This document shows positions 3,657 to 17,183 of a stretch of 21,753 bases of DNA, in pieces (within the stretch, counting starts at the first letter, position 1; every line of letters begins with the position of its first letter). The stretch lies in the IMG/VR virus record IMGVR_UViG_3300035698_026699, positions 1-21,753 of that record; one strand, 5' to 3'. The stretch is from a virus. A program made the position numbers and the translations under genes. The notes beneath the pieces were generated by a model. The model was given only the letters and a program-made list of their open reading frames with translations. It did not search any database and was not told where the DNA came from.

Positions 3657-4550
3657 CTATGCCTGCGGGATAGCGAGCCTGGCGATGCCATAGACATTAC
3701 CGAAGCTCAGGCCCATCTCGTAGGTCACTTCGAACTGGATCATCTGGAAACGCTTCTCGAGCTCGAACTGAAGCTCCTCGAGTGTGTAGTGCTTGCCTAT
3801 GAACTCGGGGTCAGTCAGGCAGTAGACGTGTCCAGGAGTGATGATGTCGTCCTTGACGGTCACAACGACCTCGCGCCCGAGGATGCTTGCGGAAGTCCAT
3901 CCTTCGGTTGCGGTGTCGCCAGCCTTGATGTCAAGATCTACGGCGTTCCACTGGAGAAGCCTGTTGAAGTCCGCTTTACGCATCAGAAGACGCTTGGACT
4001 CCAGCTCGTTGGCGTCGAGCACGTTGAAGAGGTTGACGAAGTCTTCTCTGGTGGGAACCAGGATCGAGGTACCGGCAACGGTGTTACCGGTCGCTGTGAC
4101 GGCGGCGTCCATGAGGTCGACGAAGTAGCCGTCCTTCTGCTTGATGACCTCGGCAGATCCGTTCTTCTCGATGAAGTCGGTGATAGGGTAAGGATATACC
4201 CTGATCTGCTGCTTGGTCTTCCAGTAACGCGGGGTCATGATCTTGAAGAAGGTGACGATGTACCTCTCGCCCTGGATGAACTGTCCAGTAGGCTGGGCGT
4301 CCATGTCCATGACGAAGGCGACCGCGTCCGGGTCGATCCATTCCTGCTTGTAGATCACGTCGTAGGTCTGGTCGACATAGCACTCGGGCACTGTGATCGG
4401 CTTCGAAGGGATGAACTTCTCCAGGAAGGAGTCCTCATAGACCTTCGTTGCCAGGACATCCTGCGATGTCTCCGCGACCTTGTCCATCCCGTCCTGGGAC
4501 TTGACCAGTTCGAGGAACTCGCGGTTCACGGCTGTTGCTGTTACGCTCAT
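3657..4550 (-). CDS. Probable major capsid protein (HK97-fold)
   Basis: A 297-residue protein with a strong ribosome binding site (AAGGGGGTGACC) and a clean start. It begins with a helical N-arm, includes a segment like an E-loop/P-domain (VTFFKIMTPRYWKTKQQI), and has a C-terminal A-domain-like stretch with ILGREVVVTVKDD, VYCLTDPEFIG and the final EMGLSFGNVYGIARL. These features and the length fit phage capsid proteins of the HK97 fold. The gene follows protease, scaffold and small-protein genes and precedes connector genes, the usual place. Codon choice looks more regular here than in neighbours, as expected for a highly expressed gene; the antisense strand therefore carries long empty reading frames. 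The assignment rests on context and pattern, not on a database match. Confidence 0.82.
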   Translation of the reverse strand: MSVTATAVNREFLELVKSQDGMDKVAETSQDVLATKVYEDSFLEKFIPSKPITVPECYVDQTYDVIYKQEWIDPDAVAFVMDMDAQPTGQFIQGERYIVTFFKIMTPRYWKTKQQIRVYPYPITDFIEKNGSAEVIKQKDGYFVDLMDAAVTATGNTVAGTSILVPTREDFVNLFNVLDANELESKRLLMRKADFNRLLQWNAVDLDIKAGDTATEGWTSASILGREVVVTVKDDIITPGHVYCLTDPEFIGKHYTLEELQFELEKRFQMIQFEVTYEMGLSFGNVYGIARLAIPQA

Positions 4551-5744: not shown

Positions 5745-6829
5745 TACTCTCCGTAACCGTTCTCTCTGAGGGCAGCAGCGATGTTAACGATGGAAGCTAC
5801 CTTGTCTTCGCCGACCACTTCAGCCTCAGCATCCTCGATAGCGTTGCCAACCTGGAGCAGTATCTCGGCCTCTTCCGGCTCCAGCGAAGCGGGATCGTTG
5901 AGTGCCTTGTCGGCGATGGCGTCGATGATCTGAGAGGCCTCGGCAGCATCAGTGATATCTGCCTCACCCTCTACAGGGGCCTCGTCTACCGGCTCCTCGA
6001 CCATAGGCTCCTCGGCGGCCAGGGCCTGGTCTTCGGCGATCTTGGTAAGAAGGCACTCACGCCCGAGCCTACGCCCGTAAGCACGAATGTCTTCCTCACT
6101 GGATGCCTGCTTCTGAGCCTCTGCTAGCTTCTTTAGAGAACCCATCTTAACCTCCTCGTTTTCTTCCAGCTCTTTCATGGCCGTTTTTTGTCCGTCTGCG
6201 TAGCTCTCCTGCATGATTCTGGCGGCTTCCTCTTCTCCCACCTTGGCAGCAAGCTTCGTAAACGGAGCGCCTAACCTCTTGCGGAGGTCGAGTGATGCGT
6301 GCTTGGCTACTAGGCCCCCAAGGAGATCTGCGCCCTCCCTGATACCTTCTTTCCAGCCCTGGTTGAATGCAGCGGATTTCTTGACATCGCTCGCGGTGTC
6401 ACCGCCGCCCTCAGGGGTCCTCTCGGTCTCCTTAATAGGGGGATTAAGAAGGTTTGCGATCGTTGGGGCGGCTGCGTCTGGAGTAGACCCGCCACCATCG
6501 CCTTGGCCGAGTCCCTTGCCAAGAACGATGTCGACATCTTCCTTGGCGGGGCGTGCCTCTGTGCGAGGTTTCTCTTCAGGAACCACTTCGCCGATCTCCG
6601 GCTTGGGGTTCTCCTGAGACTTATGAGTGTCCATCTCTGGACTCTCTCCGTGCTTCTTCATCTCCTGGCGGAGAAGAGCGAAGTTCTCGTCGCTAAGGCT
6701 GGAGATCTTCGCTCCAGCTTCCTTACCATCCCCGTTCAGCAGCTCGTCCATAGCTTCCCGAACATCATCGCTAGCTGGCGGGCGATTGTCCGAAGCCATC
6801 TTCATGAGCCTATCCGTTAGGGTGCCCAT
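5744..6829 (-). CDS. Scaffold / prohead core-like protein
   Basis: A 361-residue, highly charged, Glu/Ala/Lys-rich protein with long predicted helices, a Pro/Gly-rich middle (about residues 85-145) and an acidic Ala/Glu-rich C-terminus ending in ASIVNIAAALRENGYGE. Composition and place between prohead protease and capsid genes fit a scaffolding or core protein (T4 gp22-type role) that fills the prohead and is removed before packaging. I chose the ATG at 6829 because AAGGAGGAAACTCT lies directly before it. An in-frame ATG at 6871 would add 14 residues but has no clear ribosome binding site. Many K-x-A helices are present, possible protease sites or interaction helices. Confidence 0.75.
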   Translation of the reverse strand: MGTLTDRLMKMASDNRPPASDDVREAMDELLNGDGKEAGAKISSLSDENFALLRQEMKKHGESPEMDTHKSQENPKPEIGEVVPEEKPRTEARPAKEDVDIVLGKGLGQGDGGGSTPDAAAPTIANLLNPPIKETERTPEGGGDTASDVKKSAAFNQGWKEGIREGADLLGGLVAKHASLDLRKRLGAPFTKLAAKVGEEEAARIMQESYADGQKTAMKELEENEEVKMGSLKKLAEAQKQASSEEDIRAYGRRLGRECLLTKIAEDQALAAEEPMVEEPVDEAPVEGEADITDAAEASQIIDAIADKALNDPASLEPEEAEILLQVGNAIEDAEAEVVGEDKVASIVNIAAALRENGYGE

Positions 6830-6919: not shown

Positions 6920-9514
6920 TCATAGTCCGTAAGCCCCCTTCAAAATCTCTTGGCCGATGTAGCTATCTCGAACTATGTTGTTGATAGATGCCGTCTTGGT
7001 AAGCACCGCATCTTCCAACGCTCCGGTTACCATGTCTCTTACGTCAGGGTGCCTCGCAATGACAGCCGCAACTTTAACCTGGTCCAGGTTACCCACGTCT
7101 CGGACGTATGCCGAATACAGGGCTGCTGCTTCCGGATGATTGATCCTGACGACCCTAGCTGTCTTCACCCGATCTGGTGACCACTTCCTTCCCGCGATGT
7201 AATGTGGATACATCGATCTCTTTCTCATAATAGGTCTTACGATCTGAGCTATTTTAGGGTTGAAATGTTGCATAATGTCGAATGTCGGGGCTTCCTGAGG
7301 GGGAGCAGAGGCGAACCTAGCCCCCTCCCTGTATGCCAGCTTGGCCTGTGGTTCAGAAGTTCCCTTGGTGATAATGATGCAGGTGTATTCAGATGGCTTG
7401 AGGGGTATCTTCATGGCCCCGAGGGTAGCAAGGACCTCTGGCAGTGGATGCTCCGAAAGCTGCTTGAGAACGTGCTCCGGCATGTCTGGATCCGACTCGC
7501 TGGTGTCCTGGCCCAGCTCCCGCAATTCTTTGGATTTGCCGTGCACGAAGTCCTTGGGTATGAACTTGTTTTCCTTGTCGTCAGGCCCTGTTTTCTCGAT
7601 GGTAGCATCCTTCTCTTCTTCTGGGTGAAGAGAGGCGTACTTGGCTCTCATGTCGTGCATTTCGCCCAGGATAACAGAGGATATATCGCTCCTCTTGGCT
7701 ATCTTCTCCATGCCACCGCTGCTGGGGTCGGCGGGAATAGTAACGATGCTGACGTCGAAGAAGGCTGGATCCTGGTTGATCGCCATAACCCTACGGCCAT
7801 CAGGGTAGAGCCTGTTCATCTCGTTTTTGAGGTGTGTGCAGTACTGCGCCCTGGTTGAAGCTTTGTTGCCACATATGGAGCATATATCGTAAGGAACCCT
7901 GCAGCCCATGCTGACTTCGATCTTCTCGCCATTCTCTATCTTCTCTATGTACTTCGCGATGCGAGGATCCTTGCGATCGATTGCTACTATGACCTCTACT
8001 CGCTTAGCATAGGGAGCGTCGTTGTAGACAGCGAAGATCACTCGGCCATGTGCCTTCTTGGGGTCCTTGTTTTGATGATGGAGGAACAGGCGAGCGTGAT
8101 GGAAGGTCTTGTGGTACTTCTGGAGAGCAGACTCAGGGAAGAAGTCTCCGTTGAGATTCGAGTTGTGTACTACGATACCATTCACAACATAGGAGTTGTC
8201 CTCCTCTACATGTAAATTGTATACAGTACCTTCCCACTCCATTCGCTGCACCTCAATAATGCGAGACAATATGAATCCATCTGGATGTATATACGCCTCT
8301 ACATTTTGAGGAGTGGAACCAGTGAAGTTAGATGCCCCCATATGCAGTTCATATATGGGATTACCGTTATAGAAGTTGGATTTTGTATTATGACGGCCAT
8401 TGATGGTGCCCACAATACCGAGTCTTGCTGCGAGTAGCCTGACATCGTACAGAAGCTGGAATGAAGCTGAACTTATACGTAATGAACCATCGTTGGCATT
8501 GTGGCCATCACCCTTGGCGTATGCTCCGAAGAAGGCTTCCTGCCAGATAAATGGCATAGTGAGAATGTCATTGCTCAATTTCTTAGATACTGCCATCGAA
8601 CCGATGTGGTAGTAACAAAAACGAGCGAAATCTGTCCAACGTAACTCGACCCTGGACAGTGTTTGCTCGTGAGTCACATGTACTGAATGACCGAGGGCTT
8701 TTGCCGCATTCTCAATTTCAGATGCTTCATCCGAGCCAGATACTACAAACACCACTCCCGCTATATCATCCTGCCGGTTAACGTGTTTCTCGTAATCGTA
8801 CCGCCTGACTATGCATCCTTCTGCTGCATACCAACCAGCAAGCACCGCTATGGCCTCACTCCCCCATTGCTCGATAAGTGGCGAATCTTCCGTAGTTGGG
8901 AAAGGTTGCATAAGGTAATCGCCCTGCTGGACCTCGCCTATAGCAAGCCACTCGGGTTCCAAGGCTTTTATGAAATTTGTACGCCCTTCTTCGAGGGATG
9001 TGCTTGCGGCTCTCTTGCACAAGTGCCGTCTACGTTCCTTCCGAAGAATATCGCGAGGAATGACCCTAAACTCGTGGTTGGGCGTGGCCATGATAGCTGG
9101 TTGTAATCTAGGGTACCCTGCGACACTCAGCGCAACAAGACCTTGGCTATGCGGACGATCCTGAACGGCCAGGACTTTCTGGTATCTGTTCTCATGAGTC
9201 AAGACTTCTTCGCCAGCCCCAACATCTTCTATAGGCTTGAGGCCATCTCGGGTTGTAACCATAGATCCAGCAGGAAAACACCCCCAATATTCACCAGCAC
9301 CTAGGATATTGACTCTGAAGTACAGGAACCTATCTGGCATCTTCTTGGGATAGCTATCCCAGAAGTCCTGCATCTCTGCGGTCATCGGGATTACCGATGT
9401 TGCAGCCTTGGTAAGGAACTGAGACGAATCGCCGGGCATGGGCTCGAAGTTGCTATCAAACGCATCTCTCGCGTGAGCCTGTCCTTGGCTGACTACGTAC
9501 TTATACAGTGACAT
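6920..9514 (-). CDS. Prohead maturation protease precursor interrupted by an intein
   Basis: An 864-residue precursor: N-extein 1-78, intein 79-451, C-extein 452-864, giving a 491-residue product after splicing. The extein junction would read GEYWG-SNLNGDFFPESAL, resembling the N-terminal substrate loop of T4 gp21-type prohead proteases. Likely catalytic residues are a His in LFLHHQ (479/480) and Ser535 in EVSMGC. C545, C548, C559 and H561 form a probable zinc finger, which I recall from large-phage homologues. The C-terminal part after about residue 600 is helical and rich in K-x-A segments, and may be an assembly domain or be self-cleaved. Such enzymes cleave scaffold and capsid N-termini during head maturation; the scaffold and capsid genes follow directly. 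The ribosome binding site (AGGGATG) is moderate. Confidence 0.87.
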   Translation of the reverse strand: MSLYKYVVSQGQAHARDAFDSNFEPMPGDSSQFLTKAATSVIPMTAEMQDFWDSYPKKMPDRFLYFRVNILGAGEYWGCFPAGSMVTTRDGLKPIEDVGAGEEVLTHENRYQKVLAVQDRPHSQGLVALSVAGYPRLQPAIMATPNHEFRVIPRDILRKERRRHLCKRAASTSLEEGRTNFIKALEPEWLAIGEVQQGDYLMQPFPTTEDSPLIEQWGSEAIAVLAGWYAAEGCIVRRYDYEKHVNRQDDIAGVVFVVSGSDEASEIENAAKALGHSVHVTHEQTLSRVELRWTDFARFCYYHIGSMAVSKKLSNDILTMPFIWQEAFFGAYAKGDGHNANDGSLRISSASFQLLYDVRLLAARLGIVGTINGRHNTKSNFYNGNPIYELHMGASNFTGSTPQNVEAYIHPDGFILSRIIEVQRMEWEGTVYNLHVEEDNSYVVNGIVVHNSNLNGDFFPESALQKYHKTFHHARLFLHHQNKDPKKAHGRVIFAVYNDAPYAKRVEVIVAIDRKDPRIAKYIEKIENGEKIEVSMGCRVPYDICSICGNKASTRAQYCTHLKNEMNRLYPDGRRVMAINQDPAFFDVSIVTIPADPSSGGMEKIAKRSDISSVILGEMHDMRAKYASLHPEEEKDATIEKTGPDDKENKFIPKDFVHGKSKELRELGQDTSESDPDMPEHVLKQLSEHPLPEVLATLGAMKIPLKPSEYTCIIITKGTSEPQAKLAYREGARFASAPPQEAPTFDIMQHFNPKIAQIVRPIMRKRSMYPHYIAGRKWSPDRVKTARVVRINHPEAAALYSAYVRDVGNLDQVKVAAVIARHPDVRDMVTGALEDAVLTKTASINNIVRDSYIGQEILKGAYGL
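8162..9280 (-). mobile_element. Intein with LAGLIDADG homing endonuclease, inside the prohead protease
   Basis: A 373-residue in-frame insertion with complete splicing blocks. Block A starts at Cys1 (CFPAGSMVTTRDG). Block B has T66-x-x-H69 (MATPNHEF). Block F is EGTVYNLHVEEDNSYVVN and block G is GIVVHN, with H372 and N373, followed by Ser+1 of the C-extein. Between them lie two LAGLIDADG (DOD) motifs: LAGWYAAEG at 147-155 (acidic residue E154) and FFGAYAKGDG at 250-259 (acidic residue D258). All splicing residues are present and the frame is open, so it is probably active. A hand count gives 41% G+C for 8281-8400 against 53% for extein 7741-7860, suggesting recent acquisition. The insertion lies beside the conserved substrate loop, a typical intein site. 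Confidence 0.93.
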
Positions 9515-12268: not shown

Positions 12269-12297
12269 GGGGTCAGCTTCGGCTGGCCCCTTTCTTA
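12269..12297 (+). terminator. Intrinsic terminator with UUCG loop
   Basis: GGGGTCAGC (12269-12277) pairs with GCTGGCCCC (12282-12290), eight Watson-Crick pairs and one G-U, closed by a TTCG tetraloop and followed by TTTCTTA. It ends the plus-strand gene 23 bases after its stop. Its T-tract overlaps the last codon and stop of the terminase nuclease half on the other strand. No T-run follows the hairpin in the minus direction, so it should act mainly on plus-strand transcripts. Confidence 0.85.
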
Positions 12298-13041
12298 TAG
12301 ACTGTTGTCTTCGTTGACAACCATGTGGAGTATGGGGATTCTCATCACTATCTTGCGAGCCAGGTTCATGTACACACAGGCATGCAGCATGTCGTCGAAG
12401 GTTCCGTCTGGATGATCGTACTTCAACCTACCCCAGTGATCTTCTTCTGCATATTCAACCAGGAAGTCGACTGCGTAATCTTCGAAGTCTTCCCACACTG
12501 GAAGCGTGATATCTCCCTCAACGGTAATGTCTCTATGAAGGTCAGACAAGCACATCGTTCTATTCATCGAGAGCAGCTTAACATGCTCGTGATACTTCTC
12601 TACAAAGGTCTTGCCAATTCCGTAGTCAATCTGTACTACTCTGTCTCGCCCGATGGCCTTGGCTATATCAACATTCCTGCCACCAGCAGCGCCCCAGTCA
12701 GCTACTACGAAGTTGACATGGAACTCTCTAAGCTTGACGATGATCGAATCGACCTGGTCTTCCATGCTCATGTTCTTGGGAAGCTTGGACATGAAGACTA
12801 CTCTGGTCTCCTCAGGAGAGATCACCACTCCTATCATGAGGACCGTTTCGGCTCCGCCGTCGACGTTTCTTGCCCAGTCGATACCAGCTACGACATTCCT
12901 GCTGGTAACGTACTTCTTCGATATGGGATCCAAATCTTCCAGTTTGAACGCCAGTCTGTGTTCCCCACAGGCATCTCGTAACTGATTCTCCGTGAAGAAT
13001 CTGTCCGCAGAGTCCCAGGATATGCCGAAGATCTCATTCAT
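12295..13041 (-). CDS. terL: Terminase large subunit, nuclease half (separate frame)
   Basis: A 248-residue polypeptide if translation starts at the ATG at 13041, which overlaps the ATPase-half stop (ATGAATGA); the ribosome binding site is poor. It opens with the MNEIFGISWDS segment typical of the linker after the terminase ATPase domain, then carries the RNase H-like nuclease acidic residues: Asp in VVAGIDWAR, Asp in FVVADWGAAGG, and the Asp pair in GTFDDMLHA. This domain cuts the DNA concatemer during head filling. Its frame is +1 relative to the ATPase half, and the frame is open upstream only to 13083. It may be made by frameshifting, by coupled re-initiation, or the split may be a mutation or assembly error. 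All catalytic positions are intact. Confidence 0.85.
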   Translation of the reverse strand: MNEIFGISWDSADRFFTENQLRDACGEHRLAFKLEDLDPISKKYVTSRNVVAGIDWARNVDGGAETVLMIGVVISPEETRVVFMSKLPKNMSMEDQVDSIIVKLREFHVNFVVADWGAAGGRNVDIAKAIGRDRVVQIDYGIGKTFVEKYHEHVKLLSMNRTMCLSDLHRDITVEGDITLPVWEDFEDYAVDFLVEYAEEDHWGRLKYDHPDGTFDDMLHACVYMNLARKIVMRIPILHMVVNEDNSL

Positions 13042-13083
13042 CTTCTTGCCGAGTGGAATAGTGGGGGTCATTCCACTCAACCA
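13034..13083 (-). other. Frame-overlap zone of the split terminase
   Basis: Within these 50 bases both terminase frames are open: the ATPase frame runs to its TGA at 13036-13034 and the nuclease frame opens after a TAA at 13086-13084. A single +1 shift near ACT-C-GGC (about 13052-13046) would join HYST to GKKMNEIFG and give the continuous linker expected for a terminase. The region holds ATGAATGA, where stop and restart overlap by 8 bases. No strong slippery heptamer or RNA structure was evident by eye. Confidence 0.7.
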
Positions 13084-13921
13084 TTAGATCGTTCCAGTCA
13101 GTGAATGGAGACAATGGCTGTGGTACCCTGAAGCCCTCATACTCAGCGGACTCGTAACTTCTAACCCATCGCCCATCCTCAACAAATATTGGGGCTCTGC
13201 ACTTATCGCATCTAAGTCCCATAAGAGAGATGTTGCTAGGGCCTACAGATATCCAATGATGCTCCTGTAGGGTTCTGGACCCTACGGAGATTACCTTCAT
13301 ACAGTTAAAGCATGGCATGAGATACTCGTTCTGAGAAGACTTATTCCAGTACTGTTCTATGGGATTCTGCATACTGAGCGGGGTCCCGGAGAGGCTGATG
13401 ATCTTGTAGGGAGAGGTAAACATAGACTTGGTGGCGACGTACAGGTTGTCCGATATGGTGTCCTGGATCTCGTCCATGTTGATTCGGTCAGAAGTCGGGG
13501 ACCTGACATTGGCTTCACTGCTGGAGTTGGTGATCATAATAGTAGAGCCGTTGTTGAATCTCTTATGCCGAACGTTATTGACACATTCTGGCCCCGACAT
13601 GAACGGCCCGTCTACCGCTGGGGATTGGCTGATCATGGGCCATAATCTCTGGTAACTGAATGTCCTCAACTTGAGATCGTCCGGCGCACCATATAGTACA
13701 CTGAATCCTGGGATAGAGACGCATTCCACTACGGATTCTCCGGCCATCATAGAGCTCTTGCCTATCTGCCTACCGGCCTTGATAAGCCTCTTCTTCTTGG
13801 GACAGTCTATGATAGGGCGCAAGAATTCCATGGTAGACGGAACGCCATTCACTATAGGCTTTAGGGAGTACTTAACCCCAGGCTTGACGTACAGCATTGA
13901 TTCCATGAGTTGGGATCGCAT
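13034..13921 (-). CDS. terL: Terminase large subunit, ATPase half
   Basis: A 295-residue packaging motor domain. Walker A is KAGRQIGKSS (residues 48-57), Walker B is INMDEIQD with D150/E151, and the coupling motif is SLSGTP (177-181). A zinc ribbon, C204/C207 and C238/C241, follows, as in GpA-like terminases. The domain hydrolyses ATP to drive DNA into the prohead through the portal. I use the ATG at 13921 (AAGG upstream, 16 bases after the previous stop); a GTG at 13987 would add 22 Ser/Thr-rich residues overlapping the previous gene. The frame ends at WNDPHYSTRQEDE just where the nuclease domain should begin; that domain continues in another frame. Confidence 0.9.
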   Translation of the reverse strand: MRSQLMESMLYVKPGVKYSLKPIVNGVPSTMEFLRPIIDCPKKKRLIKAGRQIGKSSMMAGESVVECVSIPGFSVLYGAPDDLKLRTFSYQRLWPMISQSPAVDGPFMSGPECVNNVRHKRFNNGSTIMITNSSSEANVRSPTSDRINMDEIQDTISDNLYVATKSMFTSPYKIISLSGTPLSMQNPIEQYWNKSSQNEYLMPCFNCMKVISVGSRTLQEHHWISVGPSNISLMGLRCDKCRAPIFVEDGRWVRSYESAEYEGFRVPQPLSPFTDWNDLMVEWNDPHYSTRQEDE

Positions 13922-13937
13922 AAGCAGTACCTTGGAA

Positions 13938-14939
13938 TCACTGGTCGAGGTAGTCGGACTTTCCGAAGTCAACATCGCGTGGGTCACTTATGTCCCCATC
14001 TATCTCTGCCCTTGATATGAAATCTGGCATCAGGCCTAGCTTTATAGCTCTGGCTTCTTGAATCACTAACTCCACAGCTTCTAGAGGATTGGTGGCTACC
14101 TTAGTATTCACCACCCTCCTCTCTGACAAGACCTTCTCGAGGGTAGCTATCGTTTTTGTTGCCGCACTCCCTGAACGAAGTCTGAAATCCTTGTTGGTAT
14201 CAAAACAGGCATCCTTCAGTTGCTGGGCCTTGATCATTTCTAAGGCAGTAATGTTGTCGATATCCTGGAGCGGGGCCCCGTGCCAGGTCAGAAGATGCTT
14301 GGATACCTGCTGGATGATGGGCTTTACGTACTCGATGTGCTTATCTTCTGAAGGGATGTGCATCATCTTGCCATACTTAAGCCAGTCGTTGTGATTCATA
14401 TCGCCCACGCACCAGTAGAACTTCATAAAGATAGTTATCTCTTCGGTAGACCATCTACAGAACGGGGCTCGGGGATCCGAGGCAAGCATCTGGCTGATAT
14501 TCTCCGGCGCAATACCCTGCCACAGCATAACGCAGACTGCTCTACGTAATGGCACGCACCTGGCATCGTCCACGACCGCTTGCATCACTTTCTCTGGATA
14601 GCTGCCGGGGTCTTCCTCGCTCATACGTATCCACTCATACAGAGGGGATATACCTAGAGCTTCTGCCTGAGAAGGGGTAAAGGAGTATGACCTATCAGGC
14701 ATGCTAGCCTCATACTTCATAATCTCGTACTTATCATGCATGAAATCCCAGACGTTTTTGACTCGGGGCTTAGATGAGTCCCTACCGAAAGTAACGTCCG
14801 GAATATAGAAATCGAGGCTCCGTAGGTGCGCTAGCGCTATTTCGAACTTCTCGCCGCTATATGCGAAGGCCTTTAAGGCGCCAAGGTATGGCACCTTATA
14901 GATATCTACCGATCTGTTCGTCTTCGGCTTCCGCCTCAT
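13938..14939 (-). CDS. Unknown protein before the terminase, possible HTH (small terminase candidate)
   Basis: A 333-residue protein of unrecognised family. Residues about 131-172 (LRRAVCVMLWQGIAPENI, then CRWSTEEITIFMKFYW) have the pattern of a helix-turn-helix followed by a second helix, of the kind that senses DNA ends. The N-terminus is basic (MRRKPKTNRS). It directly precedes the terminase ATPase gene, the usual place of the small terminase subunit, which recognises DNA for packaging. It is larger than most small subunits (about 150-200 residues), so this is a positional inference. AGGTAATGG serves as ribosome binding site. Confidence 0.68.
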   Translation of the reverse strand: MRRKPKTNRSVDIYKVPYLGALKAFAYSGEKFEIALAHLRSLDFYIPDVTFGRDSSKPRVKNVWDFMHDKYEIMKYEASMPDRSYSFTPSQAEALGISPLYEWIRMSEEDPGSYPEKVMQAVVDDARCVPLRRAVCVMLWQGIAPENISQMLASDPRAPFCRWSTEEITIFMKFYWCVGDMNHNDWLKYGKMMHIPSEDKHIEYVKPIIQQVSKHLLTWHGAPLQDIDNITALEMIKAQQLKDACFDTNKDFRLRSGSAATKTIATLEKVLSERRVVNTKVATNPLEAVELVIQEARAIKLGLMPDFISRAEIDGDISDPRDVDFGKSDYLDQ

Positions 14940-14942
14940 CCA

Positions 14943-17105
14943 TTACCTGTTTTTCATTACCACCTTAGCCTGGCTGAAGCGCTCTTTGATCTCAGTCAGT
15001 CCATCCAACGTTGCTTCAACCATGCCGGGATCTAGCCCTATACTGCCAATTCTGGCGATAACGAGGAGCCTCGTCAAGACATCCTCCGCCACAGCAAGGG
15101 TTTCCAGGTGGTCTACGAAATAACCAACATTCTCTTTCGACAGGAAGTTGAGGTTGAATATCTTGTTGATACTCTCCCCACCCTCTGTCATGTCTGCGGT
15201 CTTGTGTATCTCTTCAGTTTCATGCGCCCAGGCTTTCGTCACTATCGGCATAACGCGCTCTGGCGTGAGCCTGGACACTACGCTAGCTATCTTCATTACG
15301 TTCTCGATCGGAGGTACATGAGGAGCGATAGCGTGTTCATAGTCCGCTCCACCAAAGTCCCATTCCGAAACCAAGTGAGACGCCGCTTCCTTCTCAGCGT
15401 CTTCTGTTCGGCGGACCTCTATGGCTGTAGGAGGCACGAAGACCTCAGCCTGTTCGCCTGCACCCATCTTCTCCAGGTCTACCGAATCCACTTCTGCTCC
15501 ACATATAGCAGCCAGGAATGCTATTTTGGGTATGTCGCCAGTCTCGATGTTCCTGATGCCCCTGCCTTCGAGCATGGACTGTCTCTGGTACATCCTTACT
15601 GAGCCAGTAGCCTTCTTGGTGAACTCGAGAATGGAACCCTCGAATCCCCTCTCTGCAGCCAACTGAGCCAGCTTGATGGCCGAGTCTTCCGTGGCTAGTA
15701 TCTTGACCTGGTTCTCAGGAAGGGGGGTAAACCTCATGTCGTGAGGGATGTAGAAGTTGCCACCATCGTGATCTATGAGTTCGGGAGCTACGTCTGGGCT
15801 GATCCTGGTAGGGACCTTGTAGGCATCCGTCTTTATAAGATGAATGTGCTCCATGGTGCTCAGGTCCACACCCTTGACGTGAAGGTCCGCCCCTTCGTCA
15901 GAGTAGATCGCGTCGATCCTGAAGGGTCTAGTACAGAATGCTTTCCCTTCGGAGTTCTTGATATAGAACCCCTTGACGCCCTCTGAGATATTGCCATCCG
16001 GTAGCACCATGTTTTCGGATGTCCTCCGACCAGGGAACTGTCCGGTTATGGAATAGTTCTCGCAGTTCGCGAAGAGCATCTTTCCTGGCATGTCACCATC
16101 CCAGTCCATCATCGGGTATGCGACCCCTACGGACGGTCTACCGCTGGACAGCATGACCTCGTAGGTACCGAAGGTTGATACCATCCCGGGCTTGTGCCTG
16201 ATGACATCGGTAAGGTTCCTATCTATCACCCTTGTCGCCACTTCCTCGCCACGAGTAACGGTAGCGCCTTCCCCTCTATCCGCATCTTCCAGTAGCTTGG
16301 TTCCTGTCTTGCCAAAATCAGCCGCTAGGCACCTGACACCGTAGCTGGATAGCTCCTCTTCGGCCACCTCTCTGCTGCCGTATGACCCCAGTTTGACCGA
16401 ATAGATATCGACGTCGGTCTTTCGAATAAGGGCGGCATCATATTGGGCATACTTGCCAGAAACGAATCTCTTGTCACTGGCCTCTTTCGCCATCTCTAGA
16501 GCCTGTCCCCTTGTGGCATAAGCAACAGAAGCTTTCTTTACGGTATCTACAAATACCTCTGATGCAGAGGCATACCTGTCGAAGTCACTATCTATCACAG
16601 CACCGACTTCTGTCATCCTCGAAAGATCCAGGGAGGACATCTTGGAAGGATCTCTCCATGATGCATGGTTGTCGGTGCCCGGTGAGGCTTCGATGTTGTC
16701 GTATGCGGTGAGATTATCGGATGAGAGTCCCTTGTAGGGATTGTGACCGCTCGATAGCCCCTTCTCTACACCAGGAGTCATGTAATGCCAGGAGTGGTCG
16801 ATCTGATCGTAGAACACATCAAACTGACATAGGTCGCTGTTGCGTATGATGATAGGGAAGAGGAGAATCCTCCCTCCGATTGTTATGGTCACTCCCCCAA
16901 CGCCAACTCCGTTGGCGAAGTCCTTGTGGGTGAACTGGAAGTGGGGCTTCCCCTGTACCACGAAATCAGGGAACTCTTTGGCGAAAGAGTTTCGGATCTT
17001 TTCTATCCACAGATTAGTATCCGTGCCTAGATCCTTACCCACCTTGACGATATAGTCCTCGCTCTCGGGAGGAACGAAGAAAGGCTTGTCGCTAGCGTAT
17101 GTCAT
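14943..17105 (-). CDS. Large virion-type protein of unknown function
   Basis: A 720-residue protein, the largest uninterrupted one here. The ATG at 17105 is preceded by AAAGGAGTGGTC, so I prefer it to an in-frame GTG at 17168 (21 more residues, no good ribosome binding site). Residues about 66-92 form a hydrophobic beta-rich core (GGVTITIGGRILLFPIIIR), followed by a soluble mixed domain. Several K-x-A helices appear (VKKASVAYATRG, IKLAQLAAERG, MKIASVVSRL, IHKTADMTEGG), and the last 70 residues are helical (NVGYFVDHLETLAVAEDVL). No enzyme motif was seen. The place before the terminase and size suggest a structural or injection protein; it is not recognisable as a portal. Confidence 0.75.
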   Translation of the reverse strand: MTYASDKPFFVPPESEDYIVKVGKDLGTDTNLWIEKIRNSFAKEFPDFVVQGKPHFQFTHKDFANGVGVGGVTITIGGRILLFPIIIRNSDLCQFDVFYDQIDHSWHYMTPGVEKGLSSGHNPYKGLSSDNLTAYDNIEASPGTDNHASWRDPSKMSSLDLSRMTEVGAVIDSDFDRYASASEVFVDTVKKASVAYATRGQALEMAKEASDKRFVSGKYAQYDAALIRKTDVDIYSVKLGSYGSREVAEEELSSYGVRCLAADFGKTGTKLLEDADRGEGATVTRGEEVATRVIDRNLTDVIRHKPGMVSTFGTYEVMLSSGRPSVGVAYPMMDWDGDMPGKMLFANCENYSITGQFPGRRTSENMVLPDGNISEGVKGFYIKNSEGKAFCTRPFRIDAIYSDEGADLHVKGVDLSTMEHIHLIKTDAYKVPTRISPDVAPELIDHDGGNFYIPHDMRFTPLPENQVKILATEDSAIKLAQLAAERGFEGSILEFTKKATGSVRMYQRQSMLEGRGIRNIETGDIPKIAFLAAICGAEVDSVDLEKMGAGEQAEVFVPPTAIEVRRTEDAEKEAASHLVSEWDFGGADYEHAIAPHVPPIENVMKIASVVSRLTPERVMPIVTKAWAHETEEIHKTADMTEGGESINKIFNLNFLSKENVGYFVDHLETLAVAEDVLTRLLVIARIGSIGLDPGMVEATLDGLTEIKERFSQAKVVMKNR

Positions 17106-17183
17106 GACCACTCCTTTGGGGAAGCCAGAATATGTCTCCTCTACTATGGAGTTTACTTCGAACCCCACAGAAGACCAAATAGC

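Follow-up and report, generated by a model that had tools for sequence, protein, structure and literature searches.

Phage inteins have mostly been reported in nucleic-acid enzymes. In the accessible text of Kelley et al. 2016 (PMC5050341), mycobacteriophage inteins are described at functional motifs, and one gene can have several sites (five in the case of TerL1); for some of these inteins, splicing and endonuclease activity are demonstrated, and one host, an unnamed 'hypothetical protein', accounts for 11 inteins in cluster C1. Among head-assembly genes, the Mu F (gp30)-like one of a Methylococcus capsulatus prophage holds an intein, whose splicing was suggested by Ward et al. 2004 (PMC517821, accessible part) to control head morphogenesis. 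The prohead protease genes of the Jug phages are called fragmented and/or highly divergent in the accessible part of PMC12363816, which describes a clade rich in group I introns and with some Intein_splicing proteins. In the portions available of the open-licence PMC literature, which mostly does not cover subscription papers, no prohead protease is reported to contain an intein. Here we describe such an element, a LAGLIDADG intein encoded inside a prohead protease gene, on a 21,753-nt stretch of viral DNA (IMG/VR record IMGVR_UViG_3300035698_026699, positions 1 to 21,753; the whole stretch is hereafter the window). Together with its relatives it presents an essential capsid-assembly protease hit repeatedly, at six points and up to three times per gene, in phages known only from metagenomes.

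An intein inside the prohead protease

Positions 8162-9280 on the minus strand of the window encode a complete LAGLIDADG intein inside the prohead protease. The parts of the gene, and one neighbour, are as follows.

6920-9514, minus strand: open reading frame (ORF) of the head protease precursor, 864 aa, frame without internal stop
9281..9514, minus strand: N-extein, 78 aa, ending GAGEYWG, which aligns with the N-termini of the intein-free Vibrio D69 and Salmonella Arash proteases
8162..9280, minus strand: intein at site a, 373 aa, C1 to N373, recognised by motifs, profiles and fold
9098..9280, minus strand: N-terminal part of the splicing (Hint) domain, with Hint_2 at residues 79-139 and C1 at 9278-9280
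8813..8842, minus strand: LAGLIDADG motif 1, LAGWYAAEGC, whose acidic residue is intein E154
8501..8524, minus strand: LAGLIDADG motif 2, AYAKGDGH, whose acid is intein D258; LAGLIDADG_3 at residues 325-382
8159..8224, minus strand: C-terminal splicing region, VYNLHVEED...VVHN plus Ser+1, with TIGR01443 at residues 431-452
6920..8161, minus strand: C-extein, 413 aa plus stop, the protease core, with HH.N (H480, 8075-8077) and SMG (S535, 7910-7912) invariant
3657..4550, minus strand: major head protein ORF, downstream of the protease (phrog_2522, 5.2e-12)

The intein spans precursor residues 79-451 (CFPAGS...GIVVHN, followed by S452) and holds the full canonical set of splicing residues (C1, T66PNH69, H372-N373 and Ser+1) as well as both endonuclease acids, E154 and D258; T66..H69 of block B is invariant in the intein alignment (A5). 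The initial annotation, made from the sequence alone, had proposed just such a complete element of 373 residues with Cys1, TxxH, two LAGLIDADG motifs, HN and Ser+1, and this is confirmed by ORF reading, profiles and fold. Three intein-domain profiles pass their cut-offs on the window protein: LAGLIDADG_3 (1.2e-8) and Hint_2 (2e-6, clearing its threshold narrowly with 28.7 vs 28.4 bits) from Pfam, and the NCBIfam model TIGR01443 intein_Cterm (26.7 bits vs a cut-off of 15.6), whose best stretch, residues 431-452, reaches Ser+1. Intein_splicing (1.7e-6) and Hint (0.0044) miss their Pfam cut-offs.

A search of PDB sequences with the intein returned no match at E 0.01. The AlphaFold model of the intein, built with eight relatives as input, has a pLDDT of 85.8 and a pTM of 0.84. 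Aligned to PDB structures with VIA-align, it finds the TliVMA intein as its best match (7qsu, Z 29.2, 310 aligned, 3.2 A) and also PI-SceI (1vde, Z 23.8); Foldseek agrees on intein endonucleases. The alignment with intein endonucleases covers residues 1-373 and, for a predicted structure, the match goes far beyond chance. One might still think of a decayed intein that has lost the ability to splice, its segment persisting as a domain or two cleaved parts working together. That splicing is something we infer speaks in its favour, but the splicing residues and endonuclease acids listed above are all in place and the frame is intact through 373 codons, which makes such decay quite improbable.

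The host gene

The extein matches phrog_18299, a head maturation protease (1.1e-9), and the same PHROG matches 45 of 46 relatives. A tblastn search with the C-extein reached 217 phage records, including the 'capsid maturation protease' of Gordonia Stormageddon and the 'prohead protease' of Rhodococcus E3. The element had been placed directly before the N.NGDFFP segment of a T4 gp21-like protease, and the junction and the extein matches bear this out: the window reads YFRVNILGAGEYWG, then the intein, then SNLNGDFFP, and the two closest intein-free homologues cross the same junction uninterrupted (e.g. LHINAMGAGEYYG-SNRNGDYFP). An intein-like segment is absent from 6/6 aligned intein-free homologues. 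The exteins, 78 and 413 residues long, give a predicted joined protease of 491 aa, the length originally put forward.

The protease fold was modelled on an intein-free IMG/VR relative (L152; L-numbers are labels for contigs or loci of relatives), as the spliced window protein may not be folded. This relative, on the same contig as L018, is 54% identical to the window across C-extein residues 1-155, and its model (46 rows) has a pLDDT of 85, with most of the core above 90. VIA-align places T4 gp21 first (5jbl_A, Z 10.6, 128 aligned, 3.0 A) and herpesvirus proteases next (Z 10.5 down to 5.4). H93 and S144 are invariant across the 46 rows of the protease alignment (A6); from the fold family and this invariance, the His and the Ser would be catalytic. 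A Cys/His motif, CS.C...YC.H, follows the Ser and is conserved in window-type proteases. The assignment of the exteins to a T4 gp21-type prohead protease is thus supported, and the head-gene context fits it, because the major head protein and pieces of a terminase are present in the window.

The large terminase appears as two overlapping ORFs in different frames (window 12295-13080 and 13034-13987, minus strand), of which the N-part matches phrog_675 at 44-309 and the C-part at 356-550, a frame break that is either real or from sequencing. Near it lies a 741-aa ORF (window 14943-17168, minus strand) adjoining 13938-14939, for which Pfam, PHROGs and NCBIfam gave nothing within the limits applied. 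As a separate observation on the annotation of this protein family, PHROG 27806 (798 positions, named 'DNA methyltransferase') aligns with the protease from position 437 onward only, which would suit a preceding intein; the family may in fact be a protease with an intein, its name having come from the inteins of methylases. Seven inteins scanned against it gave no match.

Insertion points and inteins among relatives

Compared with IMG/VR, the whole 864-aa protein found no close relative among the records available. Scans for more distant ones returned at least 547 relatives with a query that held the intein (A1), a ranking that favours carriers, and inteins were found at 7 of the best 80 loci, which were kept. 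With the protease core as a query without intein (A4), none of the 80 kept loci (the best 80 of 308 relatives) had an intein by blastp and profile, and with the cores of three intein carriers as query (A7), 9 of 80 did (the best 80 of 93 relatives), six of these being contigs already found. Further carriers came from scans in which the queries were alignments of the inteins at sites a to d. Since only the nearest 80 were kept per scan and intein scans target inteins, these counts are not prevalences. None of five genome contigs checked had an intein in the protease.

Altogether, and not counting the window, 26 contigs that match the protease profile carry protease inteins, and three more do so tentatively (L097, L348 and L349); L009/L010, L067/L147 and L329/L338 are near-copies. 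They occupy six sites, whose junctions were all read directly from sequence.

Site a, between G and SN.NGD (or NAD, NSD): the window, L008, L009, L010 (cut by contig end), L011, L012, L091, L094 and L095; tentatively L097 (cut by contig end)
Site b, between SMG and C: L009 (cut by contig end), L010, L012, L067, L147, L091, L324 and L325; tentatively L350 (short), L348 and L349
Site c, between HH and CNKD (or CNKG): L013, L283, L316, L345 and L346
Site d, between Y or W and C.H: L091, L263, L283, L322, L326 and L350
Site e, between YDT and CSIC: L322
Site f, between N.N and (C/S)D: L323, L327, L329, L338 and L330

Site a is thereby filled on eight contigs besides the window (seven if the near-copies L009 and L010 are counted once), and the site-f intein of L338 is identical to that of L329. 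Judged from these junctions, inteins have entered this gene repeatedly, at six different points, a recurrence that is missed from a single sequence because relatives are needed. All six sites coincide with or adjoin segments that vary hardly or not at all across the 46 intein-free rows of the protease alignment (N.N.D, H.NK, SM, C..C and YC.H). At the +1 position these rows have S in 20, A in 9, C in 8, P in 6 and other residues in 3 at site a, C in 39 at site b and C in 45 at site d. At site c, all 46 have V, I, K, Q or D (the window has Gln), and all five carriers have Cys. An intein-free protease on a Methylococcales MAG contig (L233, QVQF01000100.1, protease near 6001) nevertheless has Cys there (RHHCNKDP), which would be either a ready-made site or the trace of a lost intein.

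Some inserts were met outside this scheme. L348 and L349 encode distant proteases with an intein between SMG and C, unmatched by the protease profile and judged by eye, and L348 has a further intein just before CTIVASV, perhaps a seventh site. L350 (1942-7119, plus strand) holds a short intein-like insert without a clear endonuclease at SMG and a full one between DDY and CSH.

Two or more inteins share the contig in six cases (L009, L010, L012, L283, L322 and L091), with L350 as a tentative addition. The richest is IMGVR_UViG_3300044959_000131 (L091, from 2761, plus strand; seen further in L321 100-5136), where one head protease holds three inteins, at sites a, b and d, and 1130 intein residues lie in a stop-to-stop frame of 1679 residues (1466 as cut in L091).

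Genetic code may matter for some of these genes. The two-intein protease of IMGVR_UViG_3300028299_000364 (L012 6091-9799, plus strand) is readable only with TGA as tryptophan and has 7 TGA codons, one inside an HPW block; reading TAG as Gln was wrong, and TGA as Trp opens the frame. In the protease of L161, a stop stands between VP and DECS, where several relatives show W.

Such insertions invite the view, put forward in part by the initial annotation, that the insert serves in addition, or even chiefly, as a regulatory switch. In this view the protease would be inactive until excision, the splicing rate or its sensitivity to conditions would time head maturation, and several inteins in one protease would mean several excisions for activation. 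The placement of the six sites at conserved motifs, including the presumed catalytic segments SMG and HH.NKD, and the presence of up to three inteins in one gene favour it, as does the precedent of Ward et al., whose proposal for the Methylococcus head gene is the same in the accessible text. Inteins, however, sit at conserved motifs in many other genes as well (PMC5050341, accessible text), many relatives do without one, as the 80 empty loci (best 80 of 308) of the extein-core scan illustrate, and the endonuclease acids are almost always kept, as a homing element would keep them. A timing role of splicing is possible, but we consider it unlikely that a switch is what the insert is for. The broader proposal, in which the gp21-type protease attracts inteins throughout large uncultivated phages and those stacked at its catalytic segments act as timers that leave the protease off until one to three excisions are done, capsid maturation waiting for head assembly, appears to us similarly doubtful.

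A maximum-likelihood tree was built from 59 inteins: 32 of the protease, with those of the distant L348 and L349 among them, and 27 others from the same searches, which are no fair sample of all inteins. In it, the eight site-a inteins, i.e., the window and seven complete ones, form one group (100/99) and the five site-c inteins another (100/100). Three changes are needed for site b, two for site d and one, unsupported (30/0), for site f. Taken together, the six site labels require 6 changes vs a minimum of 5, while shuffles average 19.7 and 0/200 are as low. A tree of 37 inteins has sites a, b, c and d as one group each, and one of 33 does the same for a and b. Inteins thus appear mostly to keep to their site, which is what homing would lead one to expect, with more than one invasion probable at sites b and d.

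The nearest relative of the window intein is that of L091 at site a, 46-48% identical. Intein identity with the window is above extein identity in five of six same-site pairs: 44 vs 31% for L008, 40 vs 30% for L094, 42 vs 28% for L095, 46 vs 42% for L091 and 43 vs 30% for L009, whose extein is here joined with that of L010. The extein alignments are of unequal length, and L012 was left out. The higher identity of the inteins fits transfer, although an intein may simply evolve more slowly.

Conservation within the inteins was read from 32 of them. Left aside were the incomplete copies (L010 site a, L009 site b and L097), two duplicates (L147 and L338), the short insert of L350 and the additional one of L348. 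All 32 retain C1, H69, N373 and a T or S at 66, and 31 retain H372; the first endonuclease acid (E or D) is present in every one and the second (D) in all except the site-a intein of L009. Such upkeep of both activities is, on these alignments, hard to explain unless the inteins splice and mostly cut DNA. In that site-a intein of L009, the second endonuclease motif reads GAG for GDG; perhaps this endonuclease is on its way out, in a gene that has a second intein.

Base composition sets the window intein apart as well. Its overall G+C is 48.2%, compared with 52.0% for the extein and 52.7% for the window; the 41% given by the initial annotation does not hold, 41.4% being true only for the first 140 nt (plus strand) of the intein. 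From low G+C a recent arrival had been argued, and the part of this that stands is the foreign composition: G+C at third codon positions (GC3) is 46.4% in the intein, whereas 28 further minus-strand ORFs, chosen from the ORF list, lie at 50.4-80.2%. With its GC3 below that of all 28, a foreign origin of the intein is likely. In relatives, the GC3 of the intein is within 8 points of that of its extein in 11 of 15 cases, with larger gaps in L009 site a (higher) and in L013 site c, L283 site d and L316 site c (lower).

The same difference in GC3, and the single metagenomic contig on which the gene is found, would also fit an assembly or binning artefact in which intein sequence was wrongly joined to the protease. 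The boundaries are nonetheless exact at both ends and the same site is filled on the eight other contigs noted above (two of them near-copies), so an artefact of this kind is highly improbable.

Proposed mechanism and comparison with known systems

The element is very probably an intein with a two-motif LAGLIDADG homing endonuclease at the N.NGD of a gp21-type protease, whose precursor splices and whose endonuclease spreads it. In this model, a class-1-type intein was inserted at the N.NGD motif of the prohead protease gene, and the 864-aa precursor, which would not be an active protease, is translated whole. The Hint domain would then excise residues 79-451 through attack by Cys1, transfer to Ser+1 and cyclisation of Asn373, joining G78 to S452 in a 491-aa protease, and the endonuclease would cut intein-free copies of the gene in co-infecting phages and so spread the intein into the same site. 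What we observe beneath this model is the anatomy, the conserved residues, the fold, the homologues with an empty site and the same-site relatives in other phages.

Several points weigh against this account. Splicing and DNA cleavage by the window intein are what we infer from its residues and fold. An assembly error may also be considered, because the window is a single 21.8-kb contig and no close relative was found among the records available. The pair with L011 is reversed, its intein being 29% and its extein 32% identical to the window, and the block F Asp (361 in the window, which keeps it) is present in only 24/32 inteins. As to the host gene, Foldseek alone puts 5jbl_B at rank 2 (E 0.014), below an MlaD model, and a protease sequence profile run against PDB did not reach T4 gp21 and matched nothing meaningful. 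Pfam Peptidase_S78 (HK97-type prohead protease) matches 4/46 relatives, weakly (best 0.0032), and has no match on the window protein at E 0.1.

These genes are a natural setting in which to ask whether an intein is purely a selfish element or can gate its host enzyme, here one that might disrupt head assembly if active too soon. They also add a large number of new inteins, which would splice next to segments of a protease active site, and they hold a warning for annotation, where intein-bearing proteases can pass for hypothetical giants.

The initial annotation had called a capsid maturation protease a less usual host, and the tabulated mycobacteriophage hosts agree: Table 1 of PMC5050341, in its accessible form, has terminases, RecB, RDF, methylases, portal and others, and the prohead protease is not among them. 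The cluster C mycobacteriophage protease was considered as the unnamed host of that paper and appears unlikely, since the 39 Mycobacterium matches listed (of 196 records) run without an intein-sized gap over residues 1-222; that search of isolates listed 60 of 295 records (296 places), and some of the other 21 matches start after site a and so bear only on later positions. A second isolate search, with 30 of 216 records listed, had all of these ungapped from residue 1 or 4 to at least 223, and none of 277 isolate records has one place covering 80% of the window protein. Two further candidates for an intein-bearing protease were discarded: Tunturi_5, whose protease gene encodes 287 aa and so leaves no room for a LAGLIDADG intein, and MT835926, where the sequence after the intein was judged by eye to be a methylase.

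The Jug phages may hold related cases, an intein inside the protease not being stated in the accessible part of PMC12363816. The Methylococcus Mu F-like intein is likewise in a head-assembly gene and differs in that the gene is not a protease and the intein is without a recognisable endonuclease (PMC517821, accessible text). T4 gp21-type proteases are alike in fold, in their place among head genes and in the invariant His and Ser segments; the window protease differs by its intein and by having no sequence match to gp21 in the PDB search.

DNA methyltransferase inteins (P1-like dmt, mycobacteriophage methylases) give full-length tblastn matches in isolated phages at 23-28% identity, a range taken from the 40 matches listed (51 records in all); many of them lie in genes with a methylase annotation. 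Their host gene is another one, and they are more distant than most of the same-site inteins from IMG/VR (29-46%; 40-46% in five of seven complete ones). Among plasmids there are 132 matching records; in the 20 listed, the match is confined to residues 79-452, i.e., the intein plus one residue, and 19 of these are annotated as Dam-type methyltransferase. Class 1 LAGLIDADG inteins (PI-SceI, TliVMA, Pfu/Pho) are alike in whole-length fold, C1, TxxH, HN, the +1 nucleophile and the two endonuclease motifs, with about 12-20% identity in structural alignments, and the window differs from them in that its intein sits in a capsid maturation protease. Inteins are familiar elements in themselves; the prohead protease is a newly seen hot spot among their host genes.

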